This document shows, piece after piece, positions 45,378 to 51,769 of a stretch of DNA of 64,000 bases. Position numbers and translations under genes: made by a program. The number at the start of each line of letters is the position of its first letter. The stretch's first letter is position 1. This DNA is from Undibacterium sp. YM2 (GTDB lineage Bacteria; Pseudomonadota; Gammaproteobacteria; Burkholderiales; Burkholderiaceae_D). The stretch spans positions 1,054,001 to 1,118,000 of the forward strand of contig NZ_AP018441.1 of the NCBI RefSeq assembly GCF_009937975.1, in the 5' to 3' direction. The notes beneath the pieces are model-generated. The model ran no database searches. It saw only the letters and a list, made by a program, of their open reading frames with translations, and was not told where the DNA came from.

Positions 45378-45950
45378 TCAATGACATTCTGCCATCTTCT
45401 TGTACATCACGTCAGTACGCAAGACATATTTGATGCCAGCATCAATAGCAGCGCCCTGATGCGGTATCAAGTGAGGGAAAAGCAGCGCCATGCCAGCTTC
45501 AGGTTTGATGTCGGCAAAGCGGAATGCAGTATGGCCGCCTGCATAATCTGCATTCAGATAAATCAACAAGGTAAAGAAGCTGCTTTCGGCTTCTGTTCTT
45601 TTGAAATTGAGATCATGATGCCATTTGAAATACTGGCCAGCTTGATAGCGATAAAAACGGAAGCGCTCATTCAGGCCTGACAACTTCCATTCCTTTAATT
45701 GCGCCGGCAACATCATGCGGGCGCGTTCAAAAATCGACGCTGCAAGCATGGTGTCGTCGAAAATGATGCGGTCATTATTGCGCACCTGATCTTTCCCGCT
45801 TATCCCGGTTTTGACCTGTATAGCAGCTTTTTCATACTGCATTTGCTCGCTGCAAGCTATCATGCGCCTGCATTCTTCTTCAGTCAAAAAGCCTTTGATG
45901 CTATGCACGCCTGAACCATGGTCATGCACTTCCATGTGATTGCCTGCCAT
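45378..45950 (-). CDS. 2OG-Fe(II) oxygenase, PKHD/prolyl-4-hydroxylase type (paralogue B)
   Basis: A 190-residue enzyme. The iron and 2-oxoglutarate set is the HxD in YFKWHHDLNF, the distal His in IPHQGAAIDAG and the Arg in YVLRTDVMYK. The ERFRFYRY segment is family-typical. It is a tandem paralogue of the next upstream gene, overlapping its stop by one base (TAATG). The N-terminus may start at the ATG five codons later, which matches the paralogue better. The substrate is unknown, with protein Pro, Lys or Arg all possible. Confidence 0.8.
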   Translation of the reverse strand: MAGNHMEVHDHGSGVHSIKGFLTEEECRRMIACSEQMQYEKAAIQVKTGISGKDQVRNNDRIIFDDTMLAASIFERARMMLPAQLKEWKLSGLNERFRFYRYQAGQYFKWHHDLNFKRTEAESSFFTLLIYLNADYAGGHTAFRFADIKPEAGMALLFPHLIPHQGAAIDAGIKYVLRTDVMYKKMAECH

Positions 45951-46519
45951 TATGCTGCAGGTGCATTTGTAGCTGCAGCCTTGCGGTACATGACATCCGT
46001 GCGCAAGACATATTTGACGCCGCTTTCCACAGGGGCACCCTGATGCAACATCATGTGCGGGAAAACCAGCGCCATACCTTTTTCTGGCTGTATGGTTTCC
46101 CAGCGAAAGGATGTGCTGCCGCCAGTGTAGTCACCATTGAGATAAATCAGCAGAGTTAAAAAGCTGACTTCATCTTCATTGCGGGCATAATTGCCATCCT
46201 TATGCCATTTAAAATACTGCCCCTCTTCATACCGGTAAAAGCGAAAACGCTCATTCAGGCCCAGCAAAGTCCATTCCTTTAATTCTGCAGGCAGGAACAG
46301 TTTTGCTCTTTCAAAGATCGCTGCTGCCAGGATTTTGTCATCAAAGATGACGCGGTCATTATTGCGCACATCTTTATACATACGCATGCCTGTGCCAGTC
46401 TGTATCATGGCTTCTTCATAGCCCATTTGTTCACTGGTAAAGATCATGCGTTCGCATTCTTCTTCAGTGATAAAGTTTTTGATGCCAAATACGCCTGCAC
46501 CGTAGTTATTGAGTTCCAT
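45950..46519 (-). CDS. 2OG-Fe(II) oxygenase, PKHD/prolyl-4-hydroxylase type (paralogue A)
   Basis: A 189-residue enzyme with the same layout as its neighbour: HxD in YFKWHKDGNYA, distal His in MLHQGAPVES and Arg in YVLRTDVMYRK. FLTEEEC/FITEEECERMI is the conserved opening of both. It is divergent from the NrtR-like regulator with a 156-base gap holding an inverted repeat, so this pair may be that regulator's target. Two overlapping near-identical oxygenases point to a recent tandem duplication. Confidence 0.8.
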   Translation of the reverse strand: MELNNYGAGVFGIKNFITEEECERMIFTSEQMGYEEAMIQTGTGMRMYKDVRNNDRVIFDDKILAAAIFERAKLFLPAELKEWTLLGLNERFRFYRYEEGQYFKWHKDGNYARNEDEVSFLTLLIYLNGDYTGGSTSFRWETIQPEKGMALVFPHMMLHQGAPVESGVKYVLRTDVMYRKAAATNAPAA

Positions 46520-46611: not shown

Positions 46612-46675
46612 GACGGATTTGTACTAAATCCAGCTATCGCTTACAATGGCGGTATTGAATACTCAGGGGAAAAGC

Positions 46676-47428
46676 ATGGCGACTGCTAAGCAAAGCGAAA
46701 AAGAATTTCTGCTCAATTACAATATCCATGACTATGATGTGCCTTTGACGAGTGTGGATCTGGTGATTTTCACGATCAGGGACCAGGCTCTGCAAGTCTT
46801 GCTGGTCAAACGTGGCGATCATCCCTGCAAGGGGCAGTGGAGTTTGCCTGGTGGCTTTATTGATATCCACAATGATGTCGATCTTGATGGTGCTGCTTTG
46901 CGCAAGCTCAAGGAAAAAACCGGGGTGGAGGCGCCTTATCTTGAGCAACTCCAGGGCTTTGGCAGCCGCAACCGTGATCCGCGTGGCTGGTCTACTACCT
47001 TTGCTTACTTTGCCCTGATTTCTTCTGACCGCATCACGCTCAGCCATGGCGGCAATGCTGATGCTGTGCGCTGGTGCCCGGTCGATTCGGATGAGGGCCT
47101 GCCCAAGCTGGCCTTTGATCATGCGCAGATACTCGATGTGGCAGTCCAGCGCCTGCGCAACAAGGTGGAATACACATCCCTTCCTGCGCATTTGTTGCCG
47201 GAAGAGTTCACGCTGTCTGAGCTGCAGCGTGTGTACCAGGTCTTGCTAGGGCGACTGGTCGATAAGAGCGCGTTTCGCAAGCGCATCCGGGAAGGTGATT
47301 TCCTCGAAGAGTTGCCAGGCAAATGGCGTCTGGGCAGCAATCGCCCGGCTCAACTGTATGGCTTGCGCAAAGGTCAGGGTACGGTCTATTTCAATCGCCT
47401 CATGACGGGTGAAGTCGGAGCAAAATAG
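46676..47428 (+). CDS. NrtR-like Nudix-related transcriptional regulator
   Basis: A 250-residue protein. The N-terminal Nudix-like domain (about residues 20-150) contains LPGGFIDIHNDVDLDGAAL and LRKLKEKTGV, where the catalytic Glu residues of the Nudix box are partly replaced, as in NrtR regulators. The C-terminal half has a winged-helix DNA-binding region (TLSELQRVYQVLLGRLVDKSAF). NrtR senses ADP-ribose and usually represses NAD-salvage genes. Here the adjacent genes are 2OG oxygenases, which is unusual. The ATG at 46676 has a strong SD (AGGGGAAAAGC), so the frame start 30 bases upstream was rejected. Confidence 0.85.
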   Translation: MATAKQSEKEFLLNYNIHDYDVPLTSVDLVIFTIRDQALQVLLVKRGDHPCKGQWSLPGGFIDIHNDVDLDGAALRKLKEKTGVEAPYLEQLQGFGSRNRDPRGWSTTFAYFALISSDRITLSHGGNADAVRWCPVDSDEGLPKLAFDHAQILDVAVQRLRNKVEYTSLPAHLLPEEFTLSELQRVYQVLLGRLVDKSAFRKRIREGDFLEELPGKWRLGSNRPAQLYGLRKGQGTVYFNRLMTGEVGAK

Positions 47429-47529: not shown

Positions 47530-47711
47530 GAAAATTTAATATTATCAAATAATCATCCTGCATTCCTGATTTTCATGTTTGCCCGTAATTTAAAACAATG
47601 AGCATTGCTGCGCGTTGTGGTGAGTTGCGGGCAAATGTCCGCATCAATAATGCGCACCAGCCAAAACTAAAGCTGGCAATTGCGCATTCAGTACAAAAAG
47701 GGAGACAGTGT

Positions 47712-50663
47712 ATGAGCAAAGATCAAGACCCCATTCCGCCATGTTTTGACCAGGCCAATCAGGCACCTGAGCGCTTGACCGAGATGTTCGTTGGGATAGC
47801 ACAGGGAAACCGTATCAGACTCGGCCAGCGTCCGGCGGAGCGTGCGGTGTTCCGTAAATTGCATGGGGTTGCCAGCGCCAGGCTGGTCATGGAAAAGAAG
47901 ATACCTGCCAAACTCAAGGTCGGCGTTTTTGCGCATGAGAGCCTGGACGCCTGGGTCAGGTTTTCCAGTGACACCACACCAACTTCACCTGACCTATATT
48001 CGACTTTGGGGATAGGTATCAAACTGTTTGGCGTGCCCGGCCCCAAGGCGCTGGGTGATGATGGCGACACGGCTGACTTCATCATGCAAAACTTCCCGGT
48101 CTTCTTTGTCGATAATGCCAAGGAGATGGTGGAGTTTACTTATGCTGGCGTGGTTGCGCAGGATTATCCCGGCTATCTGAAAAAACATCCCAAGACTGCA
48201 AAAATACTGGACCAGATGGAAAAGGTCGAGGGCAGTACCCTGACCACGACTTACTGGGCCATTCTGCCTTTCCAGGCCGGGAAAAAAGAATACGTCAAAT
48301 ACCGCTTGGAGCCAGTGACACCACCAGAGAATGTGCCGAATGATGAACGCGATTACCTGGCCGTTGATATGTGCAATCGCCTGGCCAAGCGTGAATACCA
48401 GTTCCGCTTCATGGTGCAACTGCGTACCAATCCCAAGACCATGCCGCTGGATGAAGCAACGGTGGAATGGCCAGAATCAGAAAGCCCTTTCATTCATGTC
48501 GCCACTCTGATCTTGCCGCAGCAGGATATCAGCGTGCGTGGACAGTCTGAATATGGCCAGGGCCTGGCCTTCAATATCTGGCGCGTGCCGCCAGAGCAGG
48601 CACCAGTGGGTTCCATCGCTGAAGCCCGCAAGGTCGTGTATGCAGCAGGTGCAGATGCCAGGCATGAAGCCAATGGGCAAAGCCTGCAAGACCCGCGTGA
48701 ACCGCGTTCCCCGACTGCGGGCTGCCCCTTTCACGCAGTAGCGCAGGCAAAAGCAGAACCAGTCGTCAAAGACACTTGCATCGTCAAGGCCGTGATTTAT
48801 CCCTCCATAGGCGTCGCACGTGTAGGCACCAGTGAGAAGGAATGGTTTTTGGGGCCAGAAGTACCTTATCCAAAACCAGAGGCACCAGGCTATTACCGTG
48901 ACGCCCATAAAAAACTCAAACGCCAGGGTGCCAGGTTCCGAGTGTATGGTGTGAATGCCAAAGGCGAGATCGTCAAGGAACTGAATGCCGACAATGCAAA
49001 AGTAGAGTGGCAGGTGCAACTCGCCAATACCAAGTCAGCATGGTATGGCTTCCAGCTGGCGCTGGATATTCCAGAAGCCGCATCTGCACCGCAAACCACC
49101 TTGCGCAATGCGGCAGTGCCCGACAGGACCATGTTGTCCATTACGCCCAAGCAAAGAAAAGTCAGCGGTAAAAAATCCAAACCGCAGCGTTTTGATGATG
49201 GCAAATTCATGGGCAAGCCTGTATATCTGGGCGAGGCTTTCACTGATGAGCAAGGTCGTTTGATTGTACTGGGTGGGCATGGTGTATCAGCCTCTTACGA
49301 TAATAGCCGCGCCATCACCTTTGCCAATAATGAAGGCTGGCATGATGATACTTCTGACGGACCCATCAATGCCAAGGTTGTCTATGAAGGTCTGGAATTG
49401 ATGGTGGAGCCGTCCTGGGTCGTGGTTGCTCCTCCCAACTATGCGCCACAAAGAAAATCCGTGCGTACCATGTGGGACTTGATGCGCGATGTTGCCATCA
49501 CTGCCGGTACCTTGCCCAAACCAAAGCGGCCCAGCTTTACTTTCGATATCCTGCCCCTGTTTGAGCGCCTGCATGGTTTGCAATGGGTGAATGCTGGCTT
49601 CAATGCAGGTTTTGGCTGGAAGGGCATGGTGGACCTCACGAGTGCGCAGGCATTGTCGCGCCTGGCGAGTACCAATACCGCCTATGTAGAATTGCGCCGT
49701 ACCATCGCCAACCAGTTCCGCAACTATGAAGTCGATGCCTGGTCACCCAAGCCCTGGCCGTGGTTGTATGGTGATGCCATGGCTATCCCCGCTGCGCAAA
49801 CGCCAAGGCAAAATGCCTCGCTGACGGCGACTCAACTGGCCATGCTGATGGAATGGGCAGAAGGCAATTTTGTAGAAGACTACGACCCTGATCGCAAACA
49901 TGCTGAACGTATAGACCAGGTGCCGCTGGAGCAGCAAGGCGACACCCTGACGCAGGCAGCGCTGGACTTTTGTCTGGCCGATGCCTTTCACCCAGGTTGT
50001 GAAATGACTTGGCCAGTGCGTGCCAGCACCATGTATATGGCACCCTTCCGCTTTGCTCATGCCGTCGATGGCTGGATTGCGCCTGGCCTGGGTGAGATAC
50101 TGACCAGCGATGGCGTTACTATACCTAATGGCCCCTTGTACGGCCAGCAGGCGGGCGGCATCACACGCTGGATGGCTGTGCCATGGCAGACGGATACTGC
50201 AAGCTGCCGCTCTGGTTACGATAAGTCTTATGACCCTTATGTACCGAGCTTCTGGCCAGCCCGCGTGCCCAATCAGGTTTTGACCAAGCAAAACTATGCC
50301 GTCGTCATGGATGAGAAAAAACCGCTGGGTGAAAGGCTGGCCGCATTCGCCAACCGTGCCTCGTGGATCAACCCGCTGGGCAGCACCAGTTATACCGACC
50401 AGATCAATAATATGATTCATCATTTTGATCATCTCGGTGTGGTGGAAGTGCATCCCGGCCCATCTGATCATGCACACTTCCCGGCGGAGTTTGAAGTCGA
50501 AGACCAGCACATACCTATCGCCGACATGCCTGCACCAAATGCTCAGCATGTCGCACATGATGAGCATGCAAGGGTAGGGGCGGCAGAAGTGACGAATGCT
50601 GAATCTGTCGATATCATGACGATAGAAAAAGTACGCCGCTTCCCGCGTGGCCTGCATCGTTAG
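47712..50663 (+). CDS. catalase-like heme domain fused to LodA-type CTQ amino-acid oxidase
   Basis: A 983-residue protein in two parts, read from the ATG at 47712 with SD GGGAGACAG. Residues about 10-345 resemble small catalase-family heme proteins: His51 in RKLHGVAS is the catalytic His, Asn127 in MQNFPVFFV the conserved Asn, and RKVVY (306-310) the RxxxY heme-ligand motif. Residues about 350-920 match LodA/GoxA quinoprotein oxidases, with LDFCLADAFHPGCEMTW and TRWMAVPWQTD. Cys754 and Trp820 are the best candidates for the cysteine tryptophylquinone cross-link, spaced 66 residues; Cys763/Trp825 is the alternative. LodA enzymes oxidise amino acids (lysine, glycine) and release hydrogen peroxide, which the fused domain could use or remove. 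No signal peptide is seen. It is followed by its LodB-like partner two bases later. Confidence 0.85.
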   Translation: MSKDQDPIPPCFDQANQAPERLTEMFVGIAQGNRIRLGQRPAERAVFRKLHGVASARLVMEKKIPAKLKVGVFAHESLDAWVRFSSDTTPTSPDLYSTLGIGIKLFGVPGPKALGDDGDTADFIMQNFPVFFVDNAKEMVEFTYAGVVAQDYPGYLKKHPKTAKILDQMEKVEGSTLTTTYWAILPFQAGKKEYVKYRLEPVTPPENVPNDERDYLAVDMCNRLAKREYQFRFMVQLRTNPKTMPLDEATVEWPESESPFIHVATLILPQQDISVRGQSEYGQGLAFNIWRVPPEQAPVGSIAEARKVVYAAGADARHEANGQSLQDPREPRSPTAGCPFHAVAQAKAEPVVKDTCIVKAVIYPSIGVARVGTSEKEWFLGPEVPYPKPEAPGYYRDAHKKLKRQGARFRVYGVNAKGEIVKELNADNAKVEWQVQLANTKSAWYGFQLALDIPEAASAPQTTLRNAAVPDRTMLSITPKQRKVSGKKSKPQRFDDGKFMGKPVYLGEAFTDEQGRLIVLGGHGVSASYDNSRAITFANNEGWHDDTSDGPINAKVVYEGLELMVEPSWVVVAPPNYAPQRKSVRTMWDLMRDVAITAGTLPKPKRPSFTFDILPLFERLHGLQWVNAGFNAGFGWKGMVDLTSAQALSRLASTNTAYVELRRTIANQFRNYEVDAWSPKPWPWLYGDAMAIPAAQTPRQNASLTATQLAMLMEWAEGNFVEDYDPDRKHAERIDQVPLEQQGDTLTQAALDFCLADAFHPGCEMTWPVRASTMYMAPFRFAHAVDGWIAPGLGEILTSDGVTIPNGPLYGQQAGGITRWMAVPWQTDTASCRSGYDKSYDPYVPSFWPARVPNQVLTKQNYAVVMDEKKPLGERLAAFANRASWINPLGSTSYTDQINNMIHHFDHLGVVEVHPGPSDHAHFPAEFEVEDQHIPIADMPAPNAQHVAHDEHARVGAAEVTNAESVDIMTIEKVRRFPRGLHR

Positions 50664-50665
50664 AC

Positions 50666-51769
50666 GTGGGAACTTTGCAGATAGATGCCTTGGTACTGGG
50701 GGCAGGGCCTGCGGGCTCTGCCTTTGCCCTGAACCTGGCGCCATTTCAAAAAGTAGTGATGCTGGAAGCATCACCAGCAGCAGCCATGCGCATAGGTGAA
50801 TCCCTGCCAGCCGCAGCCGGTAAGCTGCTGGCTGACATGGGATTGTATGAAGCATTTTTGCAGCAAGGCCATCAGCCTGCGCATTTGAATATCAGTCAAT
50901 GGGGCAGTGATCTGGCAACAGAGCAGGATGCCATGCGCAATCTCGATGGGCATGGTTGGTATCTCGATCGCCACCGTTTTGATTGCTGGTTGCAGGATGT
51001 CGCGCAAGAGCGGGGTGCAGCTTTGCTGAGGCAAAGCAAGCTGCTGTCTTTTGCACCGGCAAAAAGCAATGCTGAATATTGGGATGCTGTCATCGCCGTG
51101 CAAGGCAAGACGGTGCAGGTAGAAACTAAAATGCTGATCGATGCCAGCGGCAGAAAGTCACTACTGACACGGCAACTGGGCATAGCCCGCAAAGCCACGG
51201 ATAAACTGGTGTGCAGCTGGCTGGTAGGCAGGGACACTGACAATACAGCAGGCTCAAGCCACATCAGTGCCGAAGCTGGCGGCTGGTGGTATAGCTCATC
51301 CTTGCCAGGGCAGGGCCGCATTGTGGCGTTCTACACTGATGCCGATTTACCAGCAGCGGCAGCCTGCAATCATCAGCAAGGGCTATTGCAGCGTCTGCGT
51401 CAGAATCCGCAATTGACAGCCTGTCTTGATGAATATGGTTTTGTACCGGGACAGCAGCATGGATATTGTGCTGCCCATACTGCAGTGCTGGAACAGTTTG
51501 CCGGTTCCAATTGGCTGGCTATCGGCGATGCCGCGCTGAGTTTTGATCCTCTATCTTCACAGGGCATTTTTAATGCTTTGTACACCGGTCTCGCTGCAGC
51601 AGAAGCTGTGTCTCATTATGATGCTGACGCACAAGCTGGCTATATAGCTGAACTGAACTCCATACAGGCTGCCTATCTGCATCATCTGCGTGTGTGGTAC
51701 GAGCAAGAGCAGCGCTGGGCTGATCAGCCATTCTGGCAACGCCGCAATACTTCTTTAACGCCTGCCTGA
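50666..51769 (+). CDS. LodB-like FAD-dependent maturation flavoprotein
   Basis: A 367-residue flavoprotein starting at GTG 50666, two bases after the LodA-fusion stop. The FAD-binding motif GAGPAGSAFAL is at residues 12-22. GESLPAAAGKLL and DRHRFDCWL follow, and IGDAALSFDPLSSQGIFNAL is the second FAD motif, as in the tryptophan-halogenase/LodB group. LodB proteins are required to form the CTQ cofactor in LodA, so immediate adjacency makes this its maturation partner. The halogenase WxWxIP motif is absent, which fits a hydroxylase-type function rather than halogenation. A TTG nine bases later is an alternative start. Confidence 0.85.
   Translation: MGTLQIDALVLGAGPAGSAFALNLAPFQKVVMLEASPAAAMRIGESLPAAAGKLLADMGLYEAFLQQGHQPAHLNISQWGSDLATEQDAMRNLDGHGWYLDRHRFDCWLQDVAQERGAALLRQSKLLSFAPAKSNAEYWDAVIAVQGKTVQVETKMLIDASGRKSLLTRQLGIARKATDKLVCSWLVGRDTDNTAGSSHISAEAGGWWYSSSLPGQGRIVAFYTDADLPAAAACNHQQGLLQRLRQNPQLTACLDEYGFVPGQQHGYCAAHTAVLEQFAGSNWLAIGDAALSFDPLSSQGIFNALYTGLAAAEAVSHYDADAQAGYIAELNSIQAAYLHHLRVWYEQEQRWADQPFWQRRNTSLTPA

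Follow-up and report, generated by a model that had tools for sequence, protein, structure and literature searches.

Fusions of a catalase-type heme domain with a quinoprotein oxidase have been catalogued before. Campillo-Brocal et al. 2015 (PMC4417212) list in their Table 3 21 proteins of 963-1072 amino acids (aa) that combine pfam00199 with LodA, among them a 979-aa fusion from Massilia timonae; in the available parts of that paper all pfam00199 fusions are placed in LodA group III, no member of which had been characterized to its authors' knowledge, and the N-terminal domain is noted also to match the y4iL-like entry CD08152 of the CDD. Coral allene oxide synthase (AOS)- and hydroperoxide lyase (HPL)-lipoxygenase fusions likewise place a catalase-like heme domain before a C-terminal peroxide-forming enzyme, and the catalase-related domain of the AOS fusion metabolizes hydroperoxides (PMC5617202, in the portions available). 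Here we describe a catalase-like-LodA fusion gene in a 64,000-nucleotide stretch of the Undibacterium sp. YM2 genome (contig NZ_AP018441.1, positions 1,054,001 to 1,118,000 of the forward strand; hereafter the window, numbered from its first letter). Its heme half belongs to a LodA-linked class in which, by alignment, the catalytic distal His of catalases is replaced by Phe and the distal Asn by Gln.

The fusion shares its domain order and its size, a single chain of about 1000 aa, with the proteins of PMC4417212, so that the initial annotation, which knew of no enzyme with this arrangement, was mistaken on that point: the arrangement was already on record, with none of the 21 proteins characterized. 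In the available parts of PMC4417212 the N-terminal domain is treated as a catalase or a y4iL-like heme domain, and the loss of the distal His, the split operons and the single origin described below are not reported; these three, and not the fusion itself, are what we add to that account. A literature search in which few subscription journals were covered returned, among the matches listed, no described activity for a pfam00199-LodA fusion.

To place the active-site residues, we aligned the N-terminal half with Escherichia coli HPII in three MAFFT modes, which gave consistent pairings. Phe47 falls on His128 and Gln126 on Asn201, the two HPII residues that we take to be the catalase distal pair. 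The remaining residues follow the catalase pattern, with Arg44 on Arg125, Val46 on Val127, Arg83 on Arg165, Asn127 on Asn202, Arg306 on Arg411, Tyr310 on Tyr415 and Arg317 on Arg422, and His51 has no partner. His51 and Asn127, which had been proposed as the distal residues, do exist as quoted, but the distal places are those of Phe47 and Gln126; the RxxxY motif of Arg306 and Tyr310, in turn, is present as first described. Judged by this comparison, the domain, predicted to have the catalase fold, carries the proximal Tyr and the heme-binding Arg residues of a catalase and lacks both the distal His and the distal Asn. The gene and the features of its heme half are as follows.

47712..50663, + strand: catalase-like-LodA fusion gene, an uninterrupted open frame of 983 codons, with a near-identical gene intact in a congeneric genome
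47712..48722, + strand: catalase-fold heme domain, residues 1-337 (AlphaFold model, matches to catalases in the PDB)
47841..47843, + strand: Arg44, corresponding by alignment to the heme-binding HPII R125; 43/43 LodA-linked domains
47850..47852, + strand: Phe47, aligned in three MAFFT modes with HPII His128, the catalytic distal His
47862..47864, + strand: His51, matching the second His in the H-x-K-x-H-G motif that non-LodA-linked relatives carry; 43/43 linked, 35/70 not linked
48087..48089, + strand: Gln126, aligned with HPII Asn201, the distal Asn; Gln in 43/43 linked, 4/70 not linked
48639..48641, + strand: Tyr310, at the proximal heme ligand position (HPII Tyr415) by alignment, with Arg306 and Arg317; 43/43 linked
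48702..48785, + strand: variable linker, residues 331-358; six pairs show aa identities of 0.38-1.00 here and of 0.77-0.97 in the halves

The replacement is a property of the whole LodA-linked class. All 43 domains linked to LodA, whether fused or split, have Phe at residue 47 and Gln at residue 126; Arg44, His51, Arg83, Arg306, Tyr310 and Arg317 are each present in 43/43 as well, and Asn127 in 41/43. Of 70 relatives without a LodA link, 63 have His at residue 47, six have Asn, one has Gln and none has Phe; only four carry Gln at residue 126. The 43 rows are not 43 independent cases, because many nearly duplicate one another and the tree shows the replacement as a single event. "Not linked" means that no LodA match lay on the retrieved locus, often about 4 kb long, and the category includes five heme-peroxidase fusions. 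Relatives were drawn from 1,947 genomes, best matches only, together with one scan of named genomes; several of the relative searches covered only matches with retrieved loci, and the wider one dropped matches below 60 bits. Partial, broken or duplicate loci (L081, L082, L084, L091, L101, L102) were removed before the counts, which also omit the duplicates L205 and L051 and, for a gap at the site, L195, and which include L083 (LodA part interrupted) and L085 (part gene). The Phe47 pattern had first been noticed in a smaller set of 39 linked and 25 unlinked rows, from which L097-L099 were left out. Three additional LodA-linked plasmid copies (L166, L167, L171), read by eye and outside the 43, also have Phe. 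L166 and L167, both on Sinorhizobium plasmids, are decaying: the catalase-like frame is open and the LodA part is interrupted. Distal-Phe catalase-like proteins outside the LodA-linked class may occur beyond the loci examined.

An engineered counterpart of this substitution exists. In the catalase of Proteus mirabilis, His54 is presumably the distal His. PDB entry 3hb6 bears the title "Inactive mutant H54F of Proteus mirabilis catalase", and going by that title alone, the LodA-linked class appears to have fixed the same kind of substitution that inactivates an engineered catalase. A plasmid gene of pNGR234a, which we take to be y4iL (the record itself says "catalase"), is homologous to the heme domain at 30.7% identity (E 2e-27, 91% of the query covered) and, like 63/70 unlinked relatives, keeps the distal His where the fusion has Phe47. 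The catalase fold apparently lost its catalytic His on a second, separate occasion: in an unlinked catalase-like subfamily (L086, L087, L156, L206, L208, L209) the distal position is occupied by Asn, within a GNTK/GNTE motif. The literature search returned, among the matches listed, no relevant title on catalase folds without the distal His and none on HPII His128.

The assignment of the N-terminal half to the catalase family holds on its predicted fold, Tyr310 and the heme-binding arginines; the family profile, by comparison, stays below its cut-off of 25 bits, with PF00199 scoring 13.6 bits on the whole protein and 16.2 bits on the N domain alone. PF00199 does match 18 of 21 related N domains at E <=1, the best at 4e-9. 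The AlphaFold model of residues 1-337, built with 46 sequences, has a mean predicted local distance difference test score (pLDDT) of 93.0 and a predicted template modelling score (pTM) of 0.92. It gave 184 PDB matches at E <=0.001, of which the best 50 are all catalases or the catalase-related protein 3e4w/3e4y of Mycobacterium avium subsp. paratuberculosis. The latter is the top match both by fold (3e4y, E 1.1e-16, with true catalases next) and by profile (E 9.5e-10), but it differs from the fusion in being only 18% identical, of 33 kDa and without an oxidase domain. In the full-length model (mean pLDDT 77, pTM 0.63) the mutual orientation of the two halves is not fixed, and its best 50 PDB matches are all LodA/GoxA chains.

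The two halves are coupled well beyond this genome. Of the 33 loci from the named-genome scan, 29 encode both in a single open frame (one of the others is split, one is a fragment and two are interrupted), and these one-frame fusions span Pseudomonadota, Actinomycetota and Myxococcota; searches in Bacteroidota added five more (L157-L161). The split locus, in Paraflavitalea pollutisoli (L079), has a catalase-like gene ending in TAA, a lodA gene with its own ATG 20 bases on, and then lodB. A second genome of the same Bacteroidota family (L146) has the same order of genes, 84% and 79% identical to those of L079. The coupling of oxidase and heme proposed at the outset is supported by these two operons, in which the halves are adjacent genes before lodB and which point to a functional link. 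The scan also found a 99% identical gene in Undibacterium pigrum. The wide distribution of one-frame fusions, together with a near-identical protein in a sister genome of the same genus, disposes of the idea that a sequencing or assembly artefact joined two genes. The single 983-codon frame originally called is indeed free of stops, and the sister genome carries its fusion in a 1020-codon open frame (N half 99% identical), which disfavours a frameshift; no point was found in favour of an artefact, and we regard it as refuted, with next to no probability left. An alternative upstream start at ATG 47598 would extend the frame to 1021 codons, but ATG 47712 is favoured because a Shine-Dalgarno-like GGGAG lies at 47700-47704 before it.

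The LodA-linked heme domains group in a single clade (support 100/100) of a 57-domain tree, the split pair being basal within it. The LodA tree (39 rows) arranges these groups in the same order, with unfused clades among or beside the fused ones, as if the N domain had been lost in the unfused LodA clades. How many such losses occurred is unsure, because the fork joining one unfused clade to the Bacteroidota fusions has a support of 92/85 and drew a warning of long branches from the program. No separate catalase-like gene was found near the close unfused lodA genes in the 10.6-18 kb stretches searched. In the family to which the window belongs, LodA_N occurs in 27/245 genomes and the fusion in at least four (among 30 loci retrieved). 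Ratios of nonsynonymous to synonymous substitution rates (dN/dS) are 0.024-0.089 in the N half and 0.032-0.088 in the LodA half, each in 5/6 pairs with one pair saturated, and both halves appear to be maintained by purifying selection; the linker and the tail evolve more loosely than either in the six pairs. A heme-regulatory role was weighed for a CPF motif in the linker but rejected, as L002 lacks the motif.

The C-terminal half is of the LodA/GoxA type, as had been called, and is followed by a LodB-like gene.

48798..49427, + strand: LodA_N domain, residues 363-572 (Pfam PF17990, E 1.2e-81)
49794..50255, + strand: LodA_C domain, residues 695-848 (Pfam PF18417, E 1.7e-39)
50193..50195, + strand: Asp828, equivalent of GoxA Asp678 by alignment to GoxA chains; invariant in 18/18 LodA domains
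50205..50207, + strand: Cys832, the cysteine of cysteine tryptophylquinone (CTQ) by alignment, on the Cys at GoxA chain position 682; 18/18 LodA domains
50253..50255, + strand: Trp848, the CTQ tryptophan by alignment, on GoxA chain position 697; 18/18 LodA domains
50666..51769, + strand: LodB/GoxB-like flavoprotein gene, putative CTQ maturase (NCBIfam LodB 238 bits and GoxB 228 bits, below the cut-off of 400 for each)

The GoxA pairings were counted by hand along the printed alignment to the solved GoxA chains, and the +354 offset from the 18-row LodA alignment to fusion residues was rechecked. The peptides first quoted from this half are present (LDFCLAD at 751, TRWMAV at 818), but by alignment they only flank the cofactor residues and were rejected as the CTQ site in favour of Cys832 and Trp848. 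The likeness to LodA and GoxA thus comprises the two domains, the Asp-Cys-Trp cofactor residues, His760 aligned with GoxA His583, and the LodB-type gene. The fusion differs in scoring far below both equivalog cut-offs (GoxA 428 bits against 750, LodA 156 bits against 600) and in lacking the insertion that holds GoxA Tyr766 and His767. By their titles, PDB entries exist for GoxA mutants at Asp678, Phe316, His583, Tyr766 and His767. Because that insertion is absent, the oxidase substrate probably differs from glycine, that of GoxA. The CTQ loop is poorly modelled, with residues 831-854 below a pLDDT of 50 in the full-length model. A LodB-like gene follows 27/29 one-frame fusions, and in the remaining two the available DNA ends first. 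LodB was also conserved in a survey of gene neighbours at 28 loci; other clusters common to at least six of these were set aside as apparently antisense or shadow frames of the fusion and lodB, judging from coordinates and letters.

From the computed features, namely domain make-up, predicted fold, residue replacement, operon coupling and purifying selection on both halves, we infer heme occupancy, hydrogen peroxide production and a reaction. The C-terminal domain would oxidize amines or amino acids with a CTQ cofactor, be matured by the adjoining LodB-like flavoprotein and, as expected of its family, release hydrogen peroxide. The N-terminal domain would hold a Tyr-ligated b-type heme in a catalase fold but would have ceased to be a catalase, with a fixed Phe-Gln in place of His-Asn. 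Such a heme would most likely use the neighbouring hydrogen peroxide, or an organic hydroperoxide, to oxidize or rearrange a bound substrate, with acid-base chemistry supplied by the substrate or by another residue, for which His51 is a candidate. We argue for a working heme because the halves are coupled and the heme ligands kept, and against a catalase role because the distal pair is lost; a catalase function is improbable for this domain. A two-domain enzyme, in which a CTQ oxidase is joined to a non-catalase heme that uses peroxide or hydroperoxide in another reaction, is therefore the reading we tentatively favour, though we would put it at somewhat less than an even chance. Its more specific form, a self-supplied peroxygenase or hydroperoxide converter in which the Phe-Gln heme spends CTQ-made hydrogen peroxide on a bound substrate, perhaps the product of the oxidase, is possible but on the unlikely side.

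Other fusions give this proposal some context. Catalase-like domains are also fused to an animal-type heme peroxidase (PF03098), at L104:5795-8623 (+), L227, L228, L230 and L215, the catalase-like part coming first in four and the peroxidase first in one, all with the distal His kept. Since these fusions occur in both orders and the coral lipoxygenase fusion is of a similar kind, the catalase scaffold may have been recruited repeatedly beside peroxide- or hydroperoxide-forming enzymes. In the available parts of PMC5617202, the coral AOS (cAOS) heme site comprises Arg64, Thr66, His67, Arg102, Asn137, Tyr353 and Arg360; cAOS keeps Thr66, His67 and Asn137, whereas the fusion has Val46, Phe47 and Gln126, the pairing of Val46-Phe47 with Thr66-His67 being made by position in the R-x-x-H motif via HPII. 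A different heme-related pairing is seen at L050:5767-9534 (-), a 1256-aa LodA with a C-terminal Haem_oxygenas_2 domain (PF14518); pfam14518-LodA fusions are listed in the available parts of PMC4417212, with the domain said to be N-terminal.

Several observations weigh against a peroxide-using heme. Some close relatives keep lodA and lodB without the N domain, so the oxidase does not need it, and the distal Phe arose as one event on the tree and not many. The catalase-related AOS is an imperfect model because, in the parts of PMC5617202 available, it retains the distal His. The roles proposed for Phe47, Gln126 and His51 rest on alignment, and a heme module that performs no catalysis could equally have lost its distal His. 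Such a module is the main rival: a structural, regulatory or sensor domain, gating the oxidase, for instance, by heme, nitric oxide or peroxide, would have no need of the His. The replacement of both distal positions and the absence of the domain from unfused clades among or beside the fused ones are as such a module would predict, but the strong purifying selection and the fixed, not drifting, replacements (Phe47, Gln126 and His51 each in 43/43) speak against it, and we consider it unlikely.

In situ removal of LodA-made peroxide, one of the two roles first proposed for the domain, would make it a modified catalase or peroxidase relying on another distal residue. Physical coupling to a predicted peroxide producer is what such a scavenger would show, and in the host genome PF00199 finds no match at E <=0.001, which the fusion too fails to reach, and there is no second catalase-like gene. 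The proposal is weakened by the Phe at the catalytic His position in 43/43 LodA-linked domains, a substitution called inactive in the 3hb6 title. It is weakened further by a 749-codon host frame that PF00141 matches twice and that probably encodes KatG, a catalase-peroxidase, because of which the N domain is probably not the cell's sole peroxide defence; we think a scavenger distinctly unlikely. Least probable among the functional proposals, and very unlikely in our estimate, is a maturation or electron partner, in which the heme would take electrons from CTQ or help build it. MauG and quinohemoprotein amine dehydrogenase are analogues, two cofactors in one chain would suit such a role, and a LodB-like gene comes next in all 27 one-frame fusions with DNA available. 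Yet close unfused relatives keep the Asp, Cys, Trp and LodB-like gene without the N domain, and a ferric heme with a Tyr ligand accepts electrons poorly.

On the other side of the fusion, directly upstream, the window carries an NrtR-type Nudix regulator gene (46646-47428, +). Its product could regulate the fusion; an NrtR-like upstream gene was common only to the sister genome among 20 loci searched. Two similar tandem 2-oxoglutarate-Fe(II) oxygenase genes lie at 45378-46519 (-), and a nearby homologue was likewise found only in the sister genome among 20 loci.

Several of the fusions are annotated simply as "LodA/GoxA family CTQ-dependent oxidase". A LodA-linked class without the catalytic His, of one origin and present in several phyla, turns that vague annotation into a direct question, namely what a catalase fold with Phe for His does beside a source of peroxide. 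Slow feeding of hydrogen peroxide is a standing problem in biocatalysis, for which the system would be relevant if the reaction is a peroxygenation. If the heme does act as a peroxygenase or hydroperoxide converter, the catalase fold would have been put to a new use, and nature would already offer a single chain that both generates peroxide and spends it.

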